DNA from: Suillus spraguei
Lineage: Eukaryota > Basidiomycota > Agaricomycetes > Boletales > Suillaceae
Assembly: GCA_016800925.1 (NCBI GenBank)
Contig: JABCPU010000071.1
Span: forward strand, 62,001-126,000
Direction: 5' to 3'
DNA length: 64,000 nt
In this document: one piece after another, positions 21,376 through 41,510 of the stretch
How the letters are laid out: every line of letters starts with the position of its first letter
How positions within the stretch are numbered: position 1 is the first letter of the stretch
Made by a program: the position numbers and the translations under genes
The notes under the pieces: generated by a model
Seen by the model: only the letters and a program-made list of their open reading frames with translations
Databases searched by the model: none
What the model was told of the DNA's origin: nothing

Positions 21376-22098
21376 TGGTGTACAGTCTTTCGTCCGCACC
21401 CCTGTAGTCATCCTAGTATGACATAGGTTGACCCCAGAGGAACACTGCCACAGTGGGTTTGGAACCAGTACCAAATTTATCTTCAGTCCTGGAGAGTCCA
21501 CAGTCTATCCTTCATCGTTACAAGATTTATTCCCTCCTATATATCATTGCACATGTAAGATGGAATTCTTCGACCTACCAACTCTTGATGGACTCCATCT
21601 CATCCCTGGACTATGCGAAGGTGTATGCCTCAGCGCAAAAGCCCTCGCTGGATTCCCTTTGTGGGTACATTACCCCACACAGCACAACTAGGCTTTCATG
21701 GTGTCAATGTACACGGTTCCGAAAGCCGCAACAAGTCAATGGCAGTTCACATACAAAATCCTCACAAAAACCGCAAGGTAGAGGATATTGCCCAGGAAAT
21801 GGTTGGCAAACACACATTCATTGGTTGGCCTTTCTTGCAAGAAGGACTGGTCACAGCCGTGTCCGATTCATTGTTCAAGTACGAGAAGTTGGTACTTGTG
21901 CCTGGTACTCTGGCGAAGGTTGTTTCCAATGTGCATTCCCACCCGAGCTTGAGCCATTGGAATGGCAAGCTGAGCAGATTGAGACACTATATTCAAAGAG
22001 ATGTGGAGTGATCACTGATGACGTTGATGTCCTGGTGCACATCCATCCGCTTTATGGATGTTCACTCTTTACACATTTGTGCAGGTTTGAAATGCTTA
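21376..22098 (+). pseudogene. XRN1: XRN1 fragment, copy a (5'-3' exoribonuclease 1)
   Basis: From 21427 the frames read GFGTSTKFIFSPGES, CKMEFFDLPTLDGLHLIPGL, LPHTAQLGFHGVNVHGSESR, EMVGKHTFIGWPFLQEGLV and CGVITDDVDVLVHIHPLYG, the post-catalytic domains of the cytoplasmic mRNA exonuclease XRN1. A frameshift near 21660 is shared with copy b. Part of the intron starting after residue VLVHI…, including its donor, is deleted; the 3' splice site survives. The fragment lacks both nuclease domain and C-terminus. The first 50 bp (21376-21425) instead match the C-terminal coding end of the zinc-finger gene at 55786-56385, so the unit is chimeric. Confidence 0.8.
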
Positions 22099-22117
22099 TG
22101 AGACCCCCTAGGGTCCA

Positions 22118-22173
22118 CTATCTATTGGAGTCAAACATCTATGGGGGCATAGATGTTTGACTCCGATAGATAG
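22118..22173. repeat. hairpin: 26-bp arms, 4-nt loop (MITE tip?)
   Basis: Left arm 22118-22143 and right arm 22148-22173 match at 25 of 26 positions around a GGGG loop. Half of the motif (CCCCCATAGATATTTGACTCC) recurs at 30353-30377 beside CCCTAGGG, as also seen at 22107-22113. It looks like two transposon tips joined head to head. XRN1 homology stops about 20 bp before it. Confidence 0.6.
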
Positions 22174-33138: not shown

Positions 33139-34533
33139 GGACCTAATGCACGATCCAAATTCACCGATATTGGACTTTTACCCTCTTGAATTTGAGCAAG
33201 ACTTCAATGGAAAGAAGCAAGACTGGGAAGCAATCATTAAGATTCCCTTTATTGATGAGCAGCGGCTGTTACAAGCAATGAAATGTGGGTAGTAAATTCT
33301 GCCTTTTGGTTGTAGTTCGTCATTGTCCCATGTGTGCAGCTCGAGAACATAGGTTGACCCCAGAGGAATGCTGCCGCAATGGGTTTGGAACCAGTACCAA
33401 ATTCATCTTCAGTCCTGGAGAGTCCACAGTCTATCCTTCATTGTTACCAGATTTCTTCCTTCCTATATATTGTTGCACATGTAAGATGGAATTCTTCGAC
33501 CTTCCAACTCTTGATGGACTCCATCTCGTCCCTGGACTATGCCTCGGTGTATGCCTCGGTGTATGCCTCAGTGCAAAAGCCCTCGCTGGATTCCCTTTGT
33601 GGGTACATTACCCCACACAGCACAGCTAGGCTTTCACGGTGTCAATGTACACGGTCCCGAAAGCTGCAACAAGTCAATGGCAGTTCACTTACAAAATCCT
33701 CACAAAAACCGCAAGGTAGAGGATATCGCCCAAGAAATGGTTGGCAAACGCACTTTCATTGGTTGGCCTTTCTTGCAAGAAGGGCTGGTCACGGCTGTGT
33801 CCGATTCATTGTTCAAGTATGAGAAGTTGGTACTCGTGCCTGGTACTCTGGCAAAGGTTGTTTCCAATGCATATTCCCATCAGAGCTTGAGCCATTGGAA
33901 GGGCAAAGCTGAGTGGATTGAGATACTATATTCGAAGAGATGTGGAGTGATCACTGATGACCTCGATGTCCTGGTGCACGTCCGTCCGCTACAAGGTGTG
34001 TGCTGGTACTTTATGGATGTTCGCTCTTTACACATTCGTGCAGGTTTGAAACGCTTAGAATCAGGCGCATTGGTTAAAAACTACAAAGGACCCGAAAAAG
34101 AACTTGAACCAGCCATCCAGATGGTCATTTCAGAAGTCGCATCCAAAGATCCCAGGTTCTGGATGCTCCACCTCTGTCGGAGGAATTTCCTGATGGAACA
34201 AACATTTTCTTCCTTGGCAAACATGCGTATGGTGTGGCTGCCCAGGTGTCTTCAACTACTGACAGTGCTTTGTCTGTTGTTCTGGCAGTATGTCACAATG
34301 CCCTACCACAATTTATCTTTCTAAATGATCTCATAGTTCTTTGTTTCAGATAAAATGGAGAATAACAAGTTCAAGATTATTGTTGATAGTCGTGTTTCAC
34401 AGCACTACTTGCCATCGTTCAAAGCAGCTTCCACAATCGGAATGTCACCCAGAGCACTCTCCAAAATCATGTCAAGCTTCATGGTTCCCTCTGATCATCA
34501 AAAGAACAATCTCGGACTCTCAGTGTCCTTGTA
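33139..34533 (+). pseudogene. XRN1: XRN1 fragment, copy b (5'-3' exoribonuclease 1)
   Basis: Exons read DFYPLEFEQDFNGKKQDWEA and IPFIDEQRLLQAMK (33150-33284), intron 33285-33339, REHRLTPEE…GFGTSTKFIFSP, LPHTAQLGFHGVNVHG, KRTFIGWPFLQEGLV, CGVITDDLDVLVHVRPL, ALVKNYKGPEKELEPAIQ, FPDGTNIFFLGKHAYGVAAQ and, after another intron, SRALSKIMSSFMV-like residues near 34460. This covers the regions following the XRN1 catalytic domain. It carries the same frameshift as copy a (near 33590), so both come from one already broken source. The conserved introns show it was copied as DNA, not from mRNA. Confidence 0.82.
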
Positions 34534-35590: not shown

Positions 35591-35799
35591 TAGTGGGTCT
35601 AGTAGTGCTTCGTTTCCTGCCCAACGGAACCAACCGGCAGTCAGTCTTTGTGTAAGTAGTGTAGGAGAAAAAATATGTGCACATACCATTGTACCAAATG
35701 TAATGAGACCAACTAATGCATATGGTACAAGGGCATCACGGAGTGCTTTGAGGGGGGCGTCACAAGGAGAACTCATCATAGTAACTTTGTGCGATCGAA

Positions 35800-36976
35800 T
35801 ACGACGTGATGACGAGAGTAGTGCCTGTATCAACGATGGCAGATGCGGCTTGCGACTTGATGACCACTTGTCCCAACCTCGAGATGCTATCCACCTCTAC
35901 CTGCCAATAGCCTCTCCGTCACAGGAACATAAGTGAGTGTGTCAGAGTGGTAAAGATACGTATTTGTTCCTCCGATGACCATTTCGCTATCTCCTGGAGT
36001 AGTAGATAGCTTGAACCCAAAGACGCTTTGCGGTAGTTCGCTACTGTCATTCAGTGTTTGGAAAAGTGGAGTTCCTTCAAACTCTGATATTTCGGGGAAT
36101 GCCAGACCGGAGAGACTGTCAGGAGGAAAAGATCTGTTCTTACTGAACTCTGGCGAATATAACCATGCTGCACCGACAGTCTGATCCTGAGCCTTGTAAA
36201 CCATATGAGTAAAGTGAACGTGAACGCCTGGGACAACTAACTTCGTAACCCCCAACAAAAACATCGTCGACGTACTCCTCGCCCGCTGTTTCCCCAGCGC
36301 CGTACATGAGTATGAACGGCTGGCCAGAATCTTGGGCAGAAGAAGATGCAGTAGGGTCGTATCATGTATGCCCATCACAAGTGACTTCGCATTGCGTAGA
36401 TGGAAGGACTACGTGAATATTACTATCAGCGCAGGAATAAAGGAATATACTTCTGGTGCTCACACAGGTCTGAGCTGCCAGTGTCGAACACCACTTCAGA
36501 ATATCGGGGTTAGACCTATCACAGCGTAGAATCGATCAAACCAACCTGTAAACGTTTTAGGGGGCGTGCCCACGCCGATCTCGCCGTACCAGAGGTCTGC
36601 GTCGTAGTTTACAAGGGCAAGGGGCACGTTTCCATTCCGTTTTGCGACCGAGCGAATGTGGAAGCGACTACTCAGGGGATGGGGAGACCCAGTATTCCGT
36701 TGGTAAGCCACCATGGTGGCACTGTACTTACTAGTTCACGTCAGGTTGATGAATGTGATGTAAGAAAGAATCTCAGATATACCGATGTACAAAATCCAAC
36801 TGTTGCCACACAGTCATCGGATCAAACACTTTGGAGCTGTTGGCGGCGTTTGATCTGGAGTTGAGGGGAATACGTTGTGTGCGACGCATGTTAGAAGGAA
36901 CATTTGGCGGAGGATTCGGAGTAGGTGACCCGACAACTGCCGCAACAAGAAGTGCACAGATTGTAGTAAACTTCAT
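35800..36976 (-). pseudogene. secreted A1 aspartic protease, broken and C-terminally truncated
   Basis: MKFTTICALLVAAVVGSPTP at 36976 is a good signal peptide. A short propeptide follows, then GEIGVGTPPKTFT, an intron, and the first catalytic motif VVFDTGSSDL near 36490. YGAGETAGEEYVDDVFVGGY, GAAWLYSPEF, PPDSLSGLAFPEISEF, VFGFKLSTTPG and YVPVTE follow in order, and the second catalytic motif AIVDTGTTLV near 35830. This is the pepsin-family layout of basidiomycete extracellular proteases. Breaks: TGA near 36365 where Arg (CGA) is expected, a frameshift near 36240, and no C-terminal lobe after about 35800. Confidence 0.8.
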
Positions 36977-37342
36977 CTTGTAGGTGTGTCACTTTGGTGG
37001 TGTAAAGTAAGAAGGGTGGCAACGACCATGTATGTCGAGAAAGCCACCAGTATTGTCATCGCGTCTAAGCATGAATGCAAGCTTTCAGTTTGGACTGACG
37101 GGCGGCCCCCGCGGTAGTGACTTGAGCTCTGCCAGTAACCTGATCTCGTTCGATTGGGCCTTTACTGACCTTATGACTTAAGCTTATCTTTCGGAGCCAT
37201 CTCTGGTCACTCACTCCCTCGGCCTTGGTCGTTGACAATGAGCGATGCAAGCGTCGGCAGTAAGAGTGCCGAAAGTAGGTATCATTCTGTCCCAATCTAT
37301 TTACAAACATAGTGTACATTCGCTTCTTGTTGAGTGGTATGA

Positions 37343-39621
37343 CTACTCGGCCCTCATTTGAATGATGAAATCGAGCATCTCATCATCATGAGCCGCCTTA
37401 ACGGGTAGTCCATCTCTCACATCACCTGGTCTCCTTATCTGGGTGTAATTCACGTATGGTGGATATAGCACGACGTTTGCTGCCCCTGCCCAGTCGAAAT
37501 CGATGATCATGAACTTTGTCCTATCGTCCTTCTTCACCAAGATGTTGGTATCGCGTATATCGCCATGGACAAAGTTTTCAGCATGGAGTTTTTTCAACTG
37601 CTCCCGGATAGGCTCGAACGCCGATCGGGGGAGGTGCTCGGTGTTGGGCAAGTCGGCCAATACATCGTAGCCGACAAGCTTATCCATGACCACCATGTAC
37701 CAACCTCCAGGAAGCTTTTCAAATCCTCGTAATCTGGGGGCAAGTCCTGACGATGCACAACGCAAATGAACCTCCTGACAATAATACCGGACAAACTTGA
37801 TGCAGATCGCATCTTCGGCAGGTCTGTCAGTGAGAGTCCCAAAGAATACGAGTCTCTTCGACGCTCCCTCATCTTCATCGAGCTGTCCAGTATATTTGAA
37901 ACATGTTTTGCCGCCGTCGTCGAGAGATATGAAGCTTGTCTGATACGGGAACAGTATAGGGTGAGATAGCGTGTTAGTAAGTTCAGATTCAGGAGGGAGC
38001 GTTTCGTAATATCCCTTGAGCGATCTGATAGCTTTGCAGAATGCGGCCATGTGACGTGCGGCGGCGATCTGATTATAGGTATCGGTGGAATGATAATTGA
38101 ATACAAGAGGGCTCGAAAGGATCTGTGCAGCAGGGCGCGAAGTCCAAACAGCACCGGCAAAGACAATGTTGGTCCTGGAAAAAAGAGTAGTTCATATGTC
38201 ATATTCCAAGCCTGAGAAATCTCGGCACTGACCAAAAACTATGAAGAGGAAACACGGCAGAGAAAACCCCGACATCTGAGGCGCCAACGTTCTCGTTGAC
38301 TCGATGTAATACGCGACAGCCTGCATATATGGTTCCGAAATGGAGGATCCTACCTCGTTCTTGAACTCGGCAATCACAAAAGGATGTTGATTGTTACGGA
38401 CGGCGACAGACATAAGTGCATCCGTCGTGTATGCAGTTCCTGGCACCTTGCGGTAGAGTTGAAAGTCAAGGTGGTACCTTGCGAGCACATTTTTAATCGC
38501 TTGTACTCGCATCTCTTCAGATTGATACAGGGCTGACATGGCATTCGCCAGTTCATTGACAAGGTTGTTATCTTCTTCTGTTATCGTGTGAGTCTGGCAG
38601 TCATCGATGAATTGGCCGAAGACTGGATGTAGTAGAGTGGCAGGAATCGTTTCCTCGAGATCGCGAGGACGACCACAGGTTATCTGTAGCTTTTTGTCAT
38701 TCTGTCGTTCACGGAACGAGGAAGGATGTGAATTATTGGAGGGCGATTGTGATCTTTTTGATTTCGACTGTAATTTCTTTTTTTTGAAATGTTCGTCGAG
38801 ATTTGCGAGGAAGGTATCCCGTGCCACTTTAATCGGGTCCTCTCCTTCGATGACGTAGTTAACCCGCCGAGGAGGATTCGTTGACCCTGCGAGCCGGAAA
38901 ATCAGTATAGTCCAATGAGACCATACAGTCACTCACTATTATCAGAGGAAACTTGGACGATGACCCGGAGAGGCTCGAGAACTGGTATGCTCAGGAAATA
39001 ATCGAATAGTGGTATGACTTGGGCCACGTCGAGCAAGTGACCCGCATCGAGGGTATCAAGGCTCTCCCGAAGTTCATCTTGGGATTCGGATATGCTGTAT
39101 AAGCATATGTGGTTGTGGTCTATGTTGTTAAGTTGTGATGCTTTCTCCTGCATCCGATCTTTAAGCATTCCCATTGGTGCATCCGGGCTGATCGAAATGT
39201 CGAAGCGGTCATAGACAGTGCTACCTCGCAACCACCAATGAATTATCAGGAGTGGGGTATCTGGAGAACGGGAATCAATTGCAAAGACAAGCTTAGGTCA
39301 CCACCATTACATACCTATAATGATATGGATGCGCTCTTCGGGCGGTGCTGCTGCGAACAGGCTTGATAACTTACGCAATGGTGGCAATGGTTTCCCAAGC
39401 TCAGATAGGAGAACACTGCGAAGATTCTCATCATAGGGTTCGGCCACAGGATCTCTGGGCTTGTAGAGTCGAAGACTTGAAGCAGGCACATCGATAACTT
39501 GAGCTTCCTTCAACAACGTTTTCAGGGTATCGACAGTTTCAAAGCGTGAAATTTTGACACCGAATACTCGGTCGATGTCGGTACCTCGTACCCAACAGTT
39601 CAGCGTGAAAACGTCAGACAT
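37343..39621 (-). CDS. Crinkler-type effector: two ubiquitin-like headers, PD-(D/E)XK-like nuclease and kinase domains
   Basis: Four exons (39621-39315, 39260-38937, 38886-38229, 38174-37343; introns 54, 50 and 54 bp) join into one 706-aa frame; exon lengths sum to 2121 nt. Residues ~3-105 are a Crinkler-type ubiquitin-like header (FTLNCWVRGTDIDRVFGVKI) and ~112-205 a second, related one (WWLRGSTVYDRFDISIS). Residues ~300-430 resemble a restriction-enzyme-like nuclease, with FVIAEFKNEVG carrying E-x-K near 383. Residues ~530-700 are kinase-like: CIKF near 554, HGDIRDTNILV near 631, IDFDWAG near 652. Such CR proteins are known as intracellular effectors or genome-conflict toxins. No signal peptide. 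The third donor (GTGCCG) is non-consensus; the alternative is a 1-nt frameshift there. Confidence 0.78.
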
Positions 39622-39887
39622 GGTGATTGAAAGTCGAGACCGTTTATCGAGGACGCCACAATTTATAACGATTTGGTCCCATTGTGTACATGTAAGCAAC
39701 CCTGTGGTCAGAGCTGACCTAATTTTCTAAACTGGAGAGCGTGGGTCATACCCAGATGGCACACAGCAGCACGCCATGAGTCAGACGTCCACAGATTTTA
39801 GGACCCTGCGCGGATGGGACTTCCGCGTGAAGAACTAGTTGATAGAGGACCATAGCTAACAACTCAGGTTAACAACTCAGATAGATA

Positions 39888-41510
39888 GGTTGTGAGTATA
39901 TCGATCCTCCTCCAAGCTCGAGCCACGCTGATCCAAGTCATTGCCAACTATTCACAGTTTGTGAGTATGTTGATCCTCCTTCGAGCCGGAGCCATGCTGA
40001 TCGAAGTCCTTGCCCACCGTTGGCAGGATGTGAGCGTGTTGATCCTCCTCCGAGCTCGAGCTATGCCGATAGAAGTCCTTGGTCACTGTTCGCAGGGTGA
40101 GTGTGTTGATCCTCCTTCGAGCTCGAGCCGTGCTGATTGAAGTCGTTGCATACTGTTCGCAGGGTGTGAGTGTGTCAATCTTCCTCTGAGCCCAAGTCAT
40201 GCTGATCAAAGTCCTTTCCCACTGTCCGTAGCCTGTGAGTGTGTCAATCTTTTTTCGAGCTCAGGCCATGCTGATCGAAGTACTTGTCCACTGTTCGCAG
40301 GGTGAGTGTGCTGATCCTCCTTTGAACCCTATCTACGTTGATTGCCGTCCTCTCGTGTTGTTCGTAGTATGTGAGTGTGTCGATCCTGCTTGAGCTCGAG
40401 CCGTGCTGATACAATTCATTGCCTACCTATTGACAGTGGGTGAATATATCGATCCTCCTTCGAGCTCGAGCCATACTGATCCAAGTCGTTTCCCACTGTT
40501 TGCAGGATGTGAGTGTGTTGATCCCCCTTCGATCTTGTGCCATGCTGATCAAAGTCATTGCACACTGTTCGCAGGGTGAGTGTGTCGATCTTCCTTCGAG
40601 CTCGAGCCATATTGATAGAACTCCTTGTCCACTGTTCACAGGGTGCGAGTGTGTTGATCCTCCTTCAAGCTCGAGTCATGCTGATCGAAGTCCTTGCCCA
40701 CTGTTTGCAGTTTGTGAGTGTGTCGATCCTCCTTCGAACTAGAGCCATCCTGATCGAAGTCCTTGCCCACTATTCGCAGGTTGTAAGTGTCCCAATTCTC
40801 CTTTGAGCTCTAGCCATGCTCATCGAGTCGTTGCCTATCTTTCGCAACATGTGAGTCTGTGTGTCGATCCTCCTTCGAGCGCGAGCAATGCTGAAAGAAC
40901 TCCTTGTCTACTGTTCCCAGTATGTGAGTGTGTCGATCCTCCGAGTCCGAGTCATGCTCATCGAGGTCCTTACCCATATTTCACAGGATGTGGGTGCGTT
41001 GATGCTCCTTCGAGCTCAAGCCATGCTCCTCGACGTCCTTGCCCACTACTTATTCGCAGTTCGTGAGTGTGTCGATCCTCCTTCGAGCTCGGGCCATGTT
41101 CATCGAAGTCCTTGCACACTGTTTGCAGTATGTGAGTTTCGATCTTCCTCCGAGCTCGACCCATGCTGATCGAAGTCCTTGTCCACTATTCCCAGGGTGT
41201 AAGTGTGTCGATGTTCCTTCGAGCTTGAGCCATTCTGATAGAAGTCCTTGCCCACCATTCATAGTATGTCGATCCTCCTTCAAGCTCGAGCCATGCTGAT
41301 TCAATTATGCGCAGGTTGTGAGTGTGTCAACCCTCCTTCCAGCTTGATCCATGCTAATCGAAGGCCTTGCCCACTGTTTGCAGGTTGTAAGTGTGTTGAT
41401 TCTTCTTCAAGCTCGAGCCCGTACTGATCAAAGTTATCGCCCCCTGTTTGCAGGATGTGAGTGTCTCGATCCTCCTTCAAGCTCGAGCATTTCTGATATC
41501 CCTTCCTTCG
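39888..41510 (+). repeat. ~24-copy, 66-70-bp tandem array of intron-like units
   Basis: Consensus unit starts GTGAGTGTGTCGATCCTCC, contains CGAGCTCGAGCCATGCTGAT and ends TGCCCACTGTTCGCAG, joined to the next by one to three bases. Every unit has a 5' splice-site-like GTGAGT (or close variant), a CTGAT branch-site-like motif ~25 nt before the end, and a terminal CAG. It lies ~270 bp upstream of the Crinkler start. ORFs across it are periodicity artefacts. Confidence 0.88.

Follow-up and report, generated by a model that had tools for sequence, protein, structure and literature searches.

A probably disabled copy of an amplified Crinkler-type nuclease-kinase gene family with tandem headers in Suillus spraguei

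We analyzed a 64,000-nt stretch of DNA (positions 62001-126000 of contig C936, hereafter the window) from the 86 Mb genome of the ectomycorrhizal mushroom Suillus spraguei (Boletales), in which the minus strand carries, between 39621 and 37343, a Crinkler-type gene divided into four open coding blocks. Block 1 (39315..39621) carries the start codon and a Crinkler header of the beta-grasp/ubiquitin-like type (header 1), and block 2 (38937..39260) carries a second, diverged Crinkler header (header 2). Block 3 (38233..38886) comprises a basic linker and a PD-(D/E)XK nuclease-like block, whereas the last part of the nuclease-like domain lies in block 4 (37343..38174) together with an atypical kinase containing the motifs HGDIRDTN and DFDWAG. 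A first-pass annotation, made from the sequence of the window, had joined these blocks into an intact 706-codon effector gene. The four open blocks themselves were confirmed. They are more than a chance pattern: the amino-acid sequences of blocks 3 and 4 are found again in several loci at 97-100% identity, and 49 database proteins can be aligned with block 3. Introns 1 and 2 of the window copy are also well supported by comparison with other copies of the gene. Intron 1 (39261..39314, minus strand; GTATGT...AG, 54 nt) has its donor and acceptor in 12 of 12 copies, and intron 2 (38887..38936, minus strand; GTGAGT...AG, 50 nt) has its donor in all 12 and an AG acceptor in 10, the window copy being included in all splice-site counts.

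When each segment was searched against profiles, as the first-pass annotation had proposed, header 1 matched the Pfam Crinkler family PF20147 at 57.7 bits (curated cut-off 24.6), and block 4 matched kinase-like families, with Kdo above the cut-off and Pkinase below it. Header 2, taken alone, fell just under the cut-off (21.7 bits, E 3.4e-4), and block 3 matched no Pfam family. Two Pfam header stretches were found in the related proteins P0124, P0127, and P0128. The Crinkler-type architecture with two headers stands, as do the E-x-K nuclease-like and HGD/DFD kinase-like assignments: residues D155, E173-x-K175, Q188, and Y193 (A2 numbering) of the former are near-invariant, and catalytic-type residues are conserved in both blocks. 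Folds were evaluated on a model of the relative P0124 from S. weaverae (mean predicted local distance difference test score 90.1) rather than on the window copy, with no header-only fold search. In this model, both headers have the strand-strand-helix-strand order of a beta-grasp, and the kinase region has a protein-kinase fold. Foldseek matches included talin FERM and USP7 chains, at low TM scores and high root-mean-square deviation, and kinase-type chains were among the best 60 of 438 matches of the A1 profile to solved structures. Taken together, the modeling supports the ubiquitin-like (beta-grasp) and kinase folds expected in the first-pass annotation and points only weakly to the PD-(D/E)XK fold, for which the expected residues are conserved. 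In a comparison of block 3 with solved structures, designed 'Pizza' proteins scored best and no nuclease was retrieved; these hits were taken as composition artefacts.

The gene belongs to a family of at least 17 copies in the S. spraguei genome, which are 72-100% alike. Genome searches gave 43 matches for block 4 and 19 for block 3, counting those of the window itself; 17 loci were compared block by block, and the more distant block 4 matches lie outside this block scoring. All four blocks were found in 12 of the 17 loci, including the window (block 4 is partial in C66), and the five further loci hold only block 4 or parts (C599, C515, C136, C361, and C62). Apart from the window copy, 11 loci thus hold all four blocks. 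In six of these (C630, C1165, C729, C773, C936 13.8 kb, and C1024 205 kb), every block is open, meaning no stop and no net frame-changing gap, and two of these six have an offsetting pair of 2-base gaps in header 1. Each of the remaining five (C435, C423, C1024 101 kb, C1024 140 kb, and C66) has one or more disabled blocks. In the C936 13.8 kb copy, the usual acceptor of intron 2 is gone, and P0128, which by eye is the annotated S. spraguei protein of this copy, is shorter at that place.

These copies locate the donor of intron 3 (38175..38232, minus strand) at 38232, where 11 of 12 copies, the window included, read GTCAGT and the twelfth (C66) reads GTGAGT. The donor chosen in the first-pass annotation, GTGCCG at 38228, sits 4 bases inside this conserved intron, and its letters are kept in eight of the 12 copies and differ in four. 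With the conserved donor, the window copy passes into the 37594-38238 frame and reaches a stop before the HGD motif (worked out by hand on blocks that were not joined). Moreover, close to where block 4 begins, the window lacks a base position that all 16 other aligned copies have. Among those 16, the C1024 140 kb copy has a second nearby gap that offsets the extra base, and this copy is disabled elsewhere; a more diverged match on C514 (L033), which differs in several places, was excluded. At the protein level, the junction motif FGPxxxFAxA was present in 43 of 72 collected E-x-K proteins and a looser form in 16 more, while the 13 proteins with neither include partial models. A single protein, P0172, reads FGQC at the junction, as the GTGCCG model would, after which the usual motif resumes; this stretch looks like a retained intron. 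In the window copy, no unbroken frame through all four blocks was found, since the conserved third donor leads out of frame. The 706-codon frame therefore most likely results from the choice of donor in a copy that is disabled, and the window copy is probably a pseudogene, or it contains a sequence error. A frameshift at the third junction, which the first-pass annotation had itself named as evidence against an intact gene, is thus indicated by comparison of the window copy with its relatives in the genome rather than by transcripts.

The strongest competing explanation is that the window copy is sound and that its frame problem is an assembly error. The copy on C630, which may be an allelic contig of the window region, is collinear over about 24 kb and has the usual third junction; over 3.8 kb, a single substitution and two single gaps separate it from the window. 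In other parts of the C630 comparison, gap openings are not uncommon (4 versus 18 substitutions, 5 versus 33, and 29 versus 63 over tandem arrays), which favors an assembly error. Against it, substitutions far exceed gap openings (8 to 1 and 14 to 1) in the two alignments, of 5.5 and 4.4 kb, that lie upstream of the gene. We regard an assembly error as possible rather than probable.

The doubled header, which had been considered unusual, was then compared among relatives. Proteins were collected by searches with block 4 (best 120 of 168 proteins used), with P0006 of S. americanus (best 120 of 163), and with the header region of P0124 (9 proteins). A header model, built from nine header stretches and rebuilt once on its own matches, was applied to the 198 collected proteins. 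Among the matches listed, the 64 proteins of at least 480 aa contained two headers in 23 cases, three in 6, one in 17, and none in 18, and some of the header-less proteins are partial gene models. Two or three headers were thus present in 29 of 64 proteins, or in 26 of 61 without the three first found by the header search. At the same threshold, the model gave no matches in 64 reversed, 192 shuffled, and 64 C-terminal sequences. Pfam, which is independent of the header model, detected two or three headers, all labelled Crinkler, in eight of ten hand-picked proteins; for P0144, Pfam reported one header and the model two. Header-bearing proteins occur in Suillus, Boletus, Paxillus, Pisolithus, Scleroderma, Lactifluus, and Amanita, among others. 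Judging from these predicted proteins, the nuclease-kinase family is spread through Agaricomycetes, and a doubled header is usual in it because so many of the longer relatives carry two or three. A literature search of titles and abstract beginnings, outside of which the main specialist paper fell, retrieved no paper on tandem Crinkler headers. The whole S. spraguei genome gave 29 Crinkler header matches; at one locus (G000, C636:241006-242055), three header matches are consecutive.

On balance, we favor the view that the window copy is probably frame-shifted at the third junction and belongs to an amplified S. spraguei family, the open members of which encode restriction endonuclease (REase)-kinase Crinklers. 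In the mechanism that we infer for these members, the two headers would serve for docking or recognition, the basic linker would take the protein into nuclei, the PD-(D/E)XK block would cut DNA or RNA there, and the kinase would gate the nuclease. Nuclear entry is proposed because the basic run after header 2, visible in the translation of the window copy, suits it. The target would most likely lie in the fungus itself or in another fungus, in conflict or defence, the alternative being that the protein is delivered to the cells of pine roots. With moderate confidence, we favor action within the fungus or among fungi over root delivery.

The alternative would make the open members secreted symbiosis effectors that alter the nuclei of pine root cells, which fits the ectomycorrhizal habit of the species, and unconventional export is possible. 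In addition, every one of the 29 proteins that carry at least two headers is from an ectomycorrhizal genus, whereas none of the six named proteins of other genera carries more than one (one-sided p = 0.015); these are hand counts with four unnamed proteins omitted, and kinship, partial gene models, and the search seed all confound the association. On the other hand, the nuclease-kinase half has relatives in Serpula (P0047), a wood decayer, and a hydropathy scan of the window copy found no hydrophobic N-terminal stretch (best 12-residue mean near the N-terminus 0.74). A mycorrhizal precedent is found in RiCRN1, for which such a role has been proposed in arbuscular mycorrhiza; according to the same source, most CRN proteins of Rhizophagus irregularis have no signal peptide, and the authors suggest a function in the fungal cytoplasm or secretion by another route (PMC6131194). 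N-terminal Crinkler headers (PF20147) are also reported for fungal NLR proteins (PMC9815663). The term effector used in the first-pass annotation is therefore unsupported, and we consider delivery to roots rather unlikely.

Selection on the family was estimated from four copies (the window, C729, C936 13.8 kb, and C1024 205 kb), in which the ratio of nonsynonymous to synonymous changes per site was 1.96 in header 1, 0.74 in header 2, 0.60 in block 3, and 0.48 in block 4, and only blocks 3 and 4 differed from neutral (p = 0.008 and 0.0008). Ten copies, disabled ones included, gave 1.18, 0.64, 0.60, and 0.43, respectively, with p = 0.0009 and 2e-6 for blocks 3 and 4. These counts exclude C66, the five truncated copies, and C630, which is nearly identical to the window; the tests take sites as independent and copies as unrelated. 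On these sequence comparisons, the catalytic half (blocks 3 and 4) is under purifying selection, and the headers do not appear clearly constrained. Pairwise ratios in header 1 reached 8.4 against a disabled copy and 4.6 against an open copy; its contrast with blocks 3 and 4 combined was weak (p = 0.017, or 0.064 with ten copies, uncorrected for multiple tests). Positive selection on header 1 was considered and rejected, as 30 nonsynonymous versus 5 synonymous changes pooled over the four copies did not reject neutrality (p = 0.15). Differences in headers 1 and 2 are clustered, which suggests that gene conversion would fit them as well. The earlier proposal that survival of this gene among decayed neighbors reflects recent arrival or selection is unsupported for a probably broken member of a many-copied family found across Suillus and other Boletales. 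A bolder idea would have the tandem headers change quickly as a recognition module that directs a kinase-gated nuclease in conflicts among fungi or between fungus and root; their doubling or tripling would occur mainly in ectomycorrhizal mushrooms, and amplification in transposon-rich DNA would supply new header combinations. We offer it as a long shot.

The gene might instead be passenger DNA, copied with transposons and without function in any copy. The repeat-rich surroundings described in the first-pass annotation were confirmed, as high-copy repeats lie in both flanks of the gene (40 of 367 and 40 of 358 candidates scored) and Ty3-type and Tc-type pieces lie inside the window; the disabled and truncated copies, five of each, fit this explanation too. 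The purifying selection on blocks 3 and 4, the six fully open copies, and the conserved relatives in many species argue against it, making it improbable. Least credible, and in our opinion very unlikely, is a functional window copy spliced at GTGCCG, which would leave four open blocks in one continuous frame (by hand count from coordinates) but would use a partly conserved donor unlike those of introns 1 and 2 and insert intron letters into a conserved motif, although the conserved GTCAGT 4 bases upstream is also present in the window.

The region around the gene includes a stretch common to several genomic copies (35779..39715), with breakpoints near both ends, which holds an aspartyl-protease piece (PF00026, 35887-36408, minus strand) copied along with the Crinkler gene. 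A self-contained mobile unit was considered and rejected: the breakpoints near 35779 and 39715 are common, but no long terminal inverted repeats were found. Left flanks vary by copy group, those of C936 13.8 kb, C599, C62, C515, and C136 being alike (~97-99.7%) and that of C1024 101 kb being another, and larger segmental duplications are more likely than a mobile unit. Directly upstream of the gene, a 69-bp tandem array of ~23 units (39891..41488) is common to the C630 and C435 copies; it was not seen in the examined flanks of copies whose match ends at 39715. Several truncated copies on C515, C136, C361, and C62 (L020-L024, L027, and L028) have an insertion at one common block 4 site, flanked by ~6 repeated bases. 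Xrn1 D1 domain pieces were also observed in the window (33515-34324 and 21432-22160, both on the plus strand). The Xrn1 family has 161 genome matches (150 of 177 candidates scored), many of them with stops, and the Xrn1-like gene has therefore become a high-copy repeat.

Thus, the gene family is real and its window copy was over-read: what looked like an intact effector is probably a disabled member of an amplified family. Among these mushroom nuclease-kinase proteins, two or three Crinkler headers are commonplace, and therefore the role of the second header can be asked of many natural variants. Annotated proteins from Suillus, Boletus, Paxillus, Pisolithus, and Amanita, labelled 'hypothetical' or 'Crinkler effector protein N-term...' (such as P0124 and P0128), have the same domain order; unlike them, the window copy is out of frame at the third junction by the conserved splice sites. 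Judged by domain order, the family belongs to the published REase-kinase Crinkler class, with its nuclease-plus-regulatory-kinase logic (Zhang et al. 2016, as summarised in PMC5289972). In the accessible text of that summary, REase plus protein kinase accounts for about one sixth of CR C-termini, and the nuclease is proposed to be the toxic part, regulated by the kinase. REase-kinase CR effectors have a ubiquitin-like header followed by a restriction-endonuclease-like block and a kinase, as in S. spraguei, whereas the S. spraguei family has two headers and resides in repeat-rich DNA of a mutualist mushroom; the same text contains no mention of tandem headers (PMC5289972). RiCRN1 likewise has a Crinkler header modeled as a beta-grasp and comes from a mycorrhizal fungus, but it belongs to a subset with a predicted signal peptide, and tandem headers are not mentioned in the available part of its description (PMC6131194). 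Fungal NLR proteins, as far as the accessible portion of their description goes, have the same header family, PF20147, but there it leads an NLR receptor rather than a nuclease-kinase (PMC9815663).
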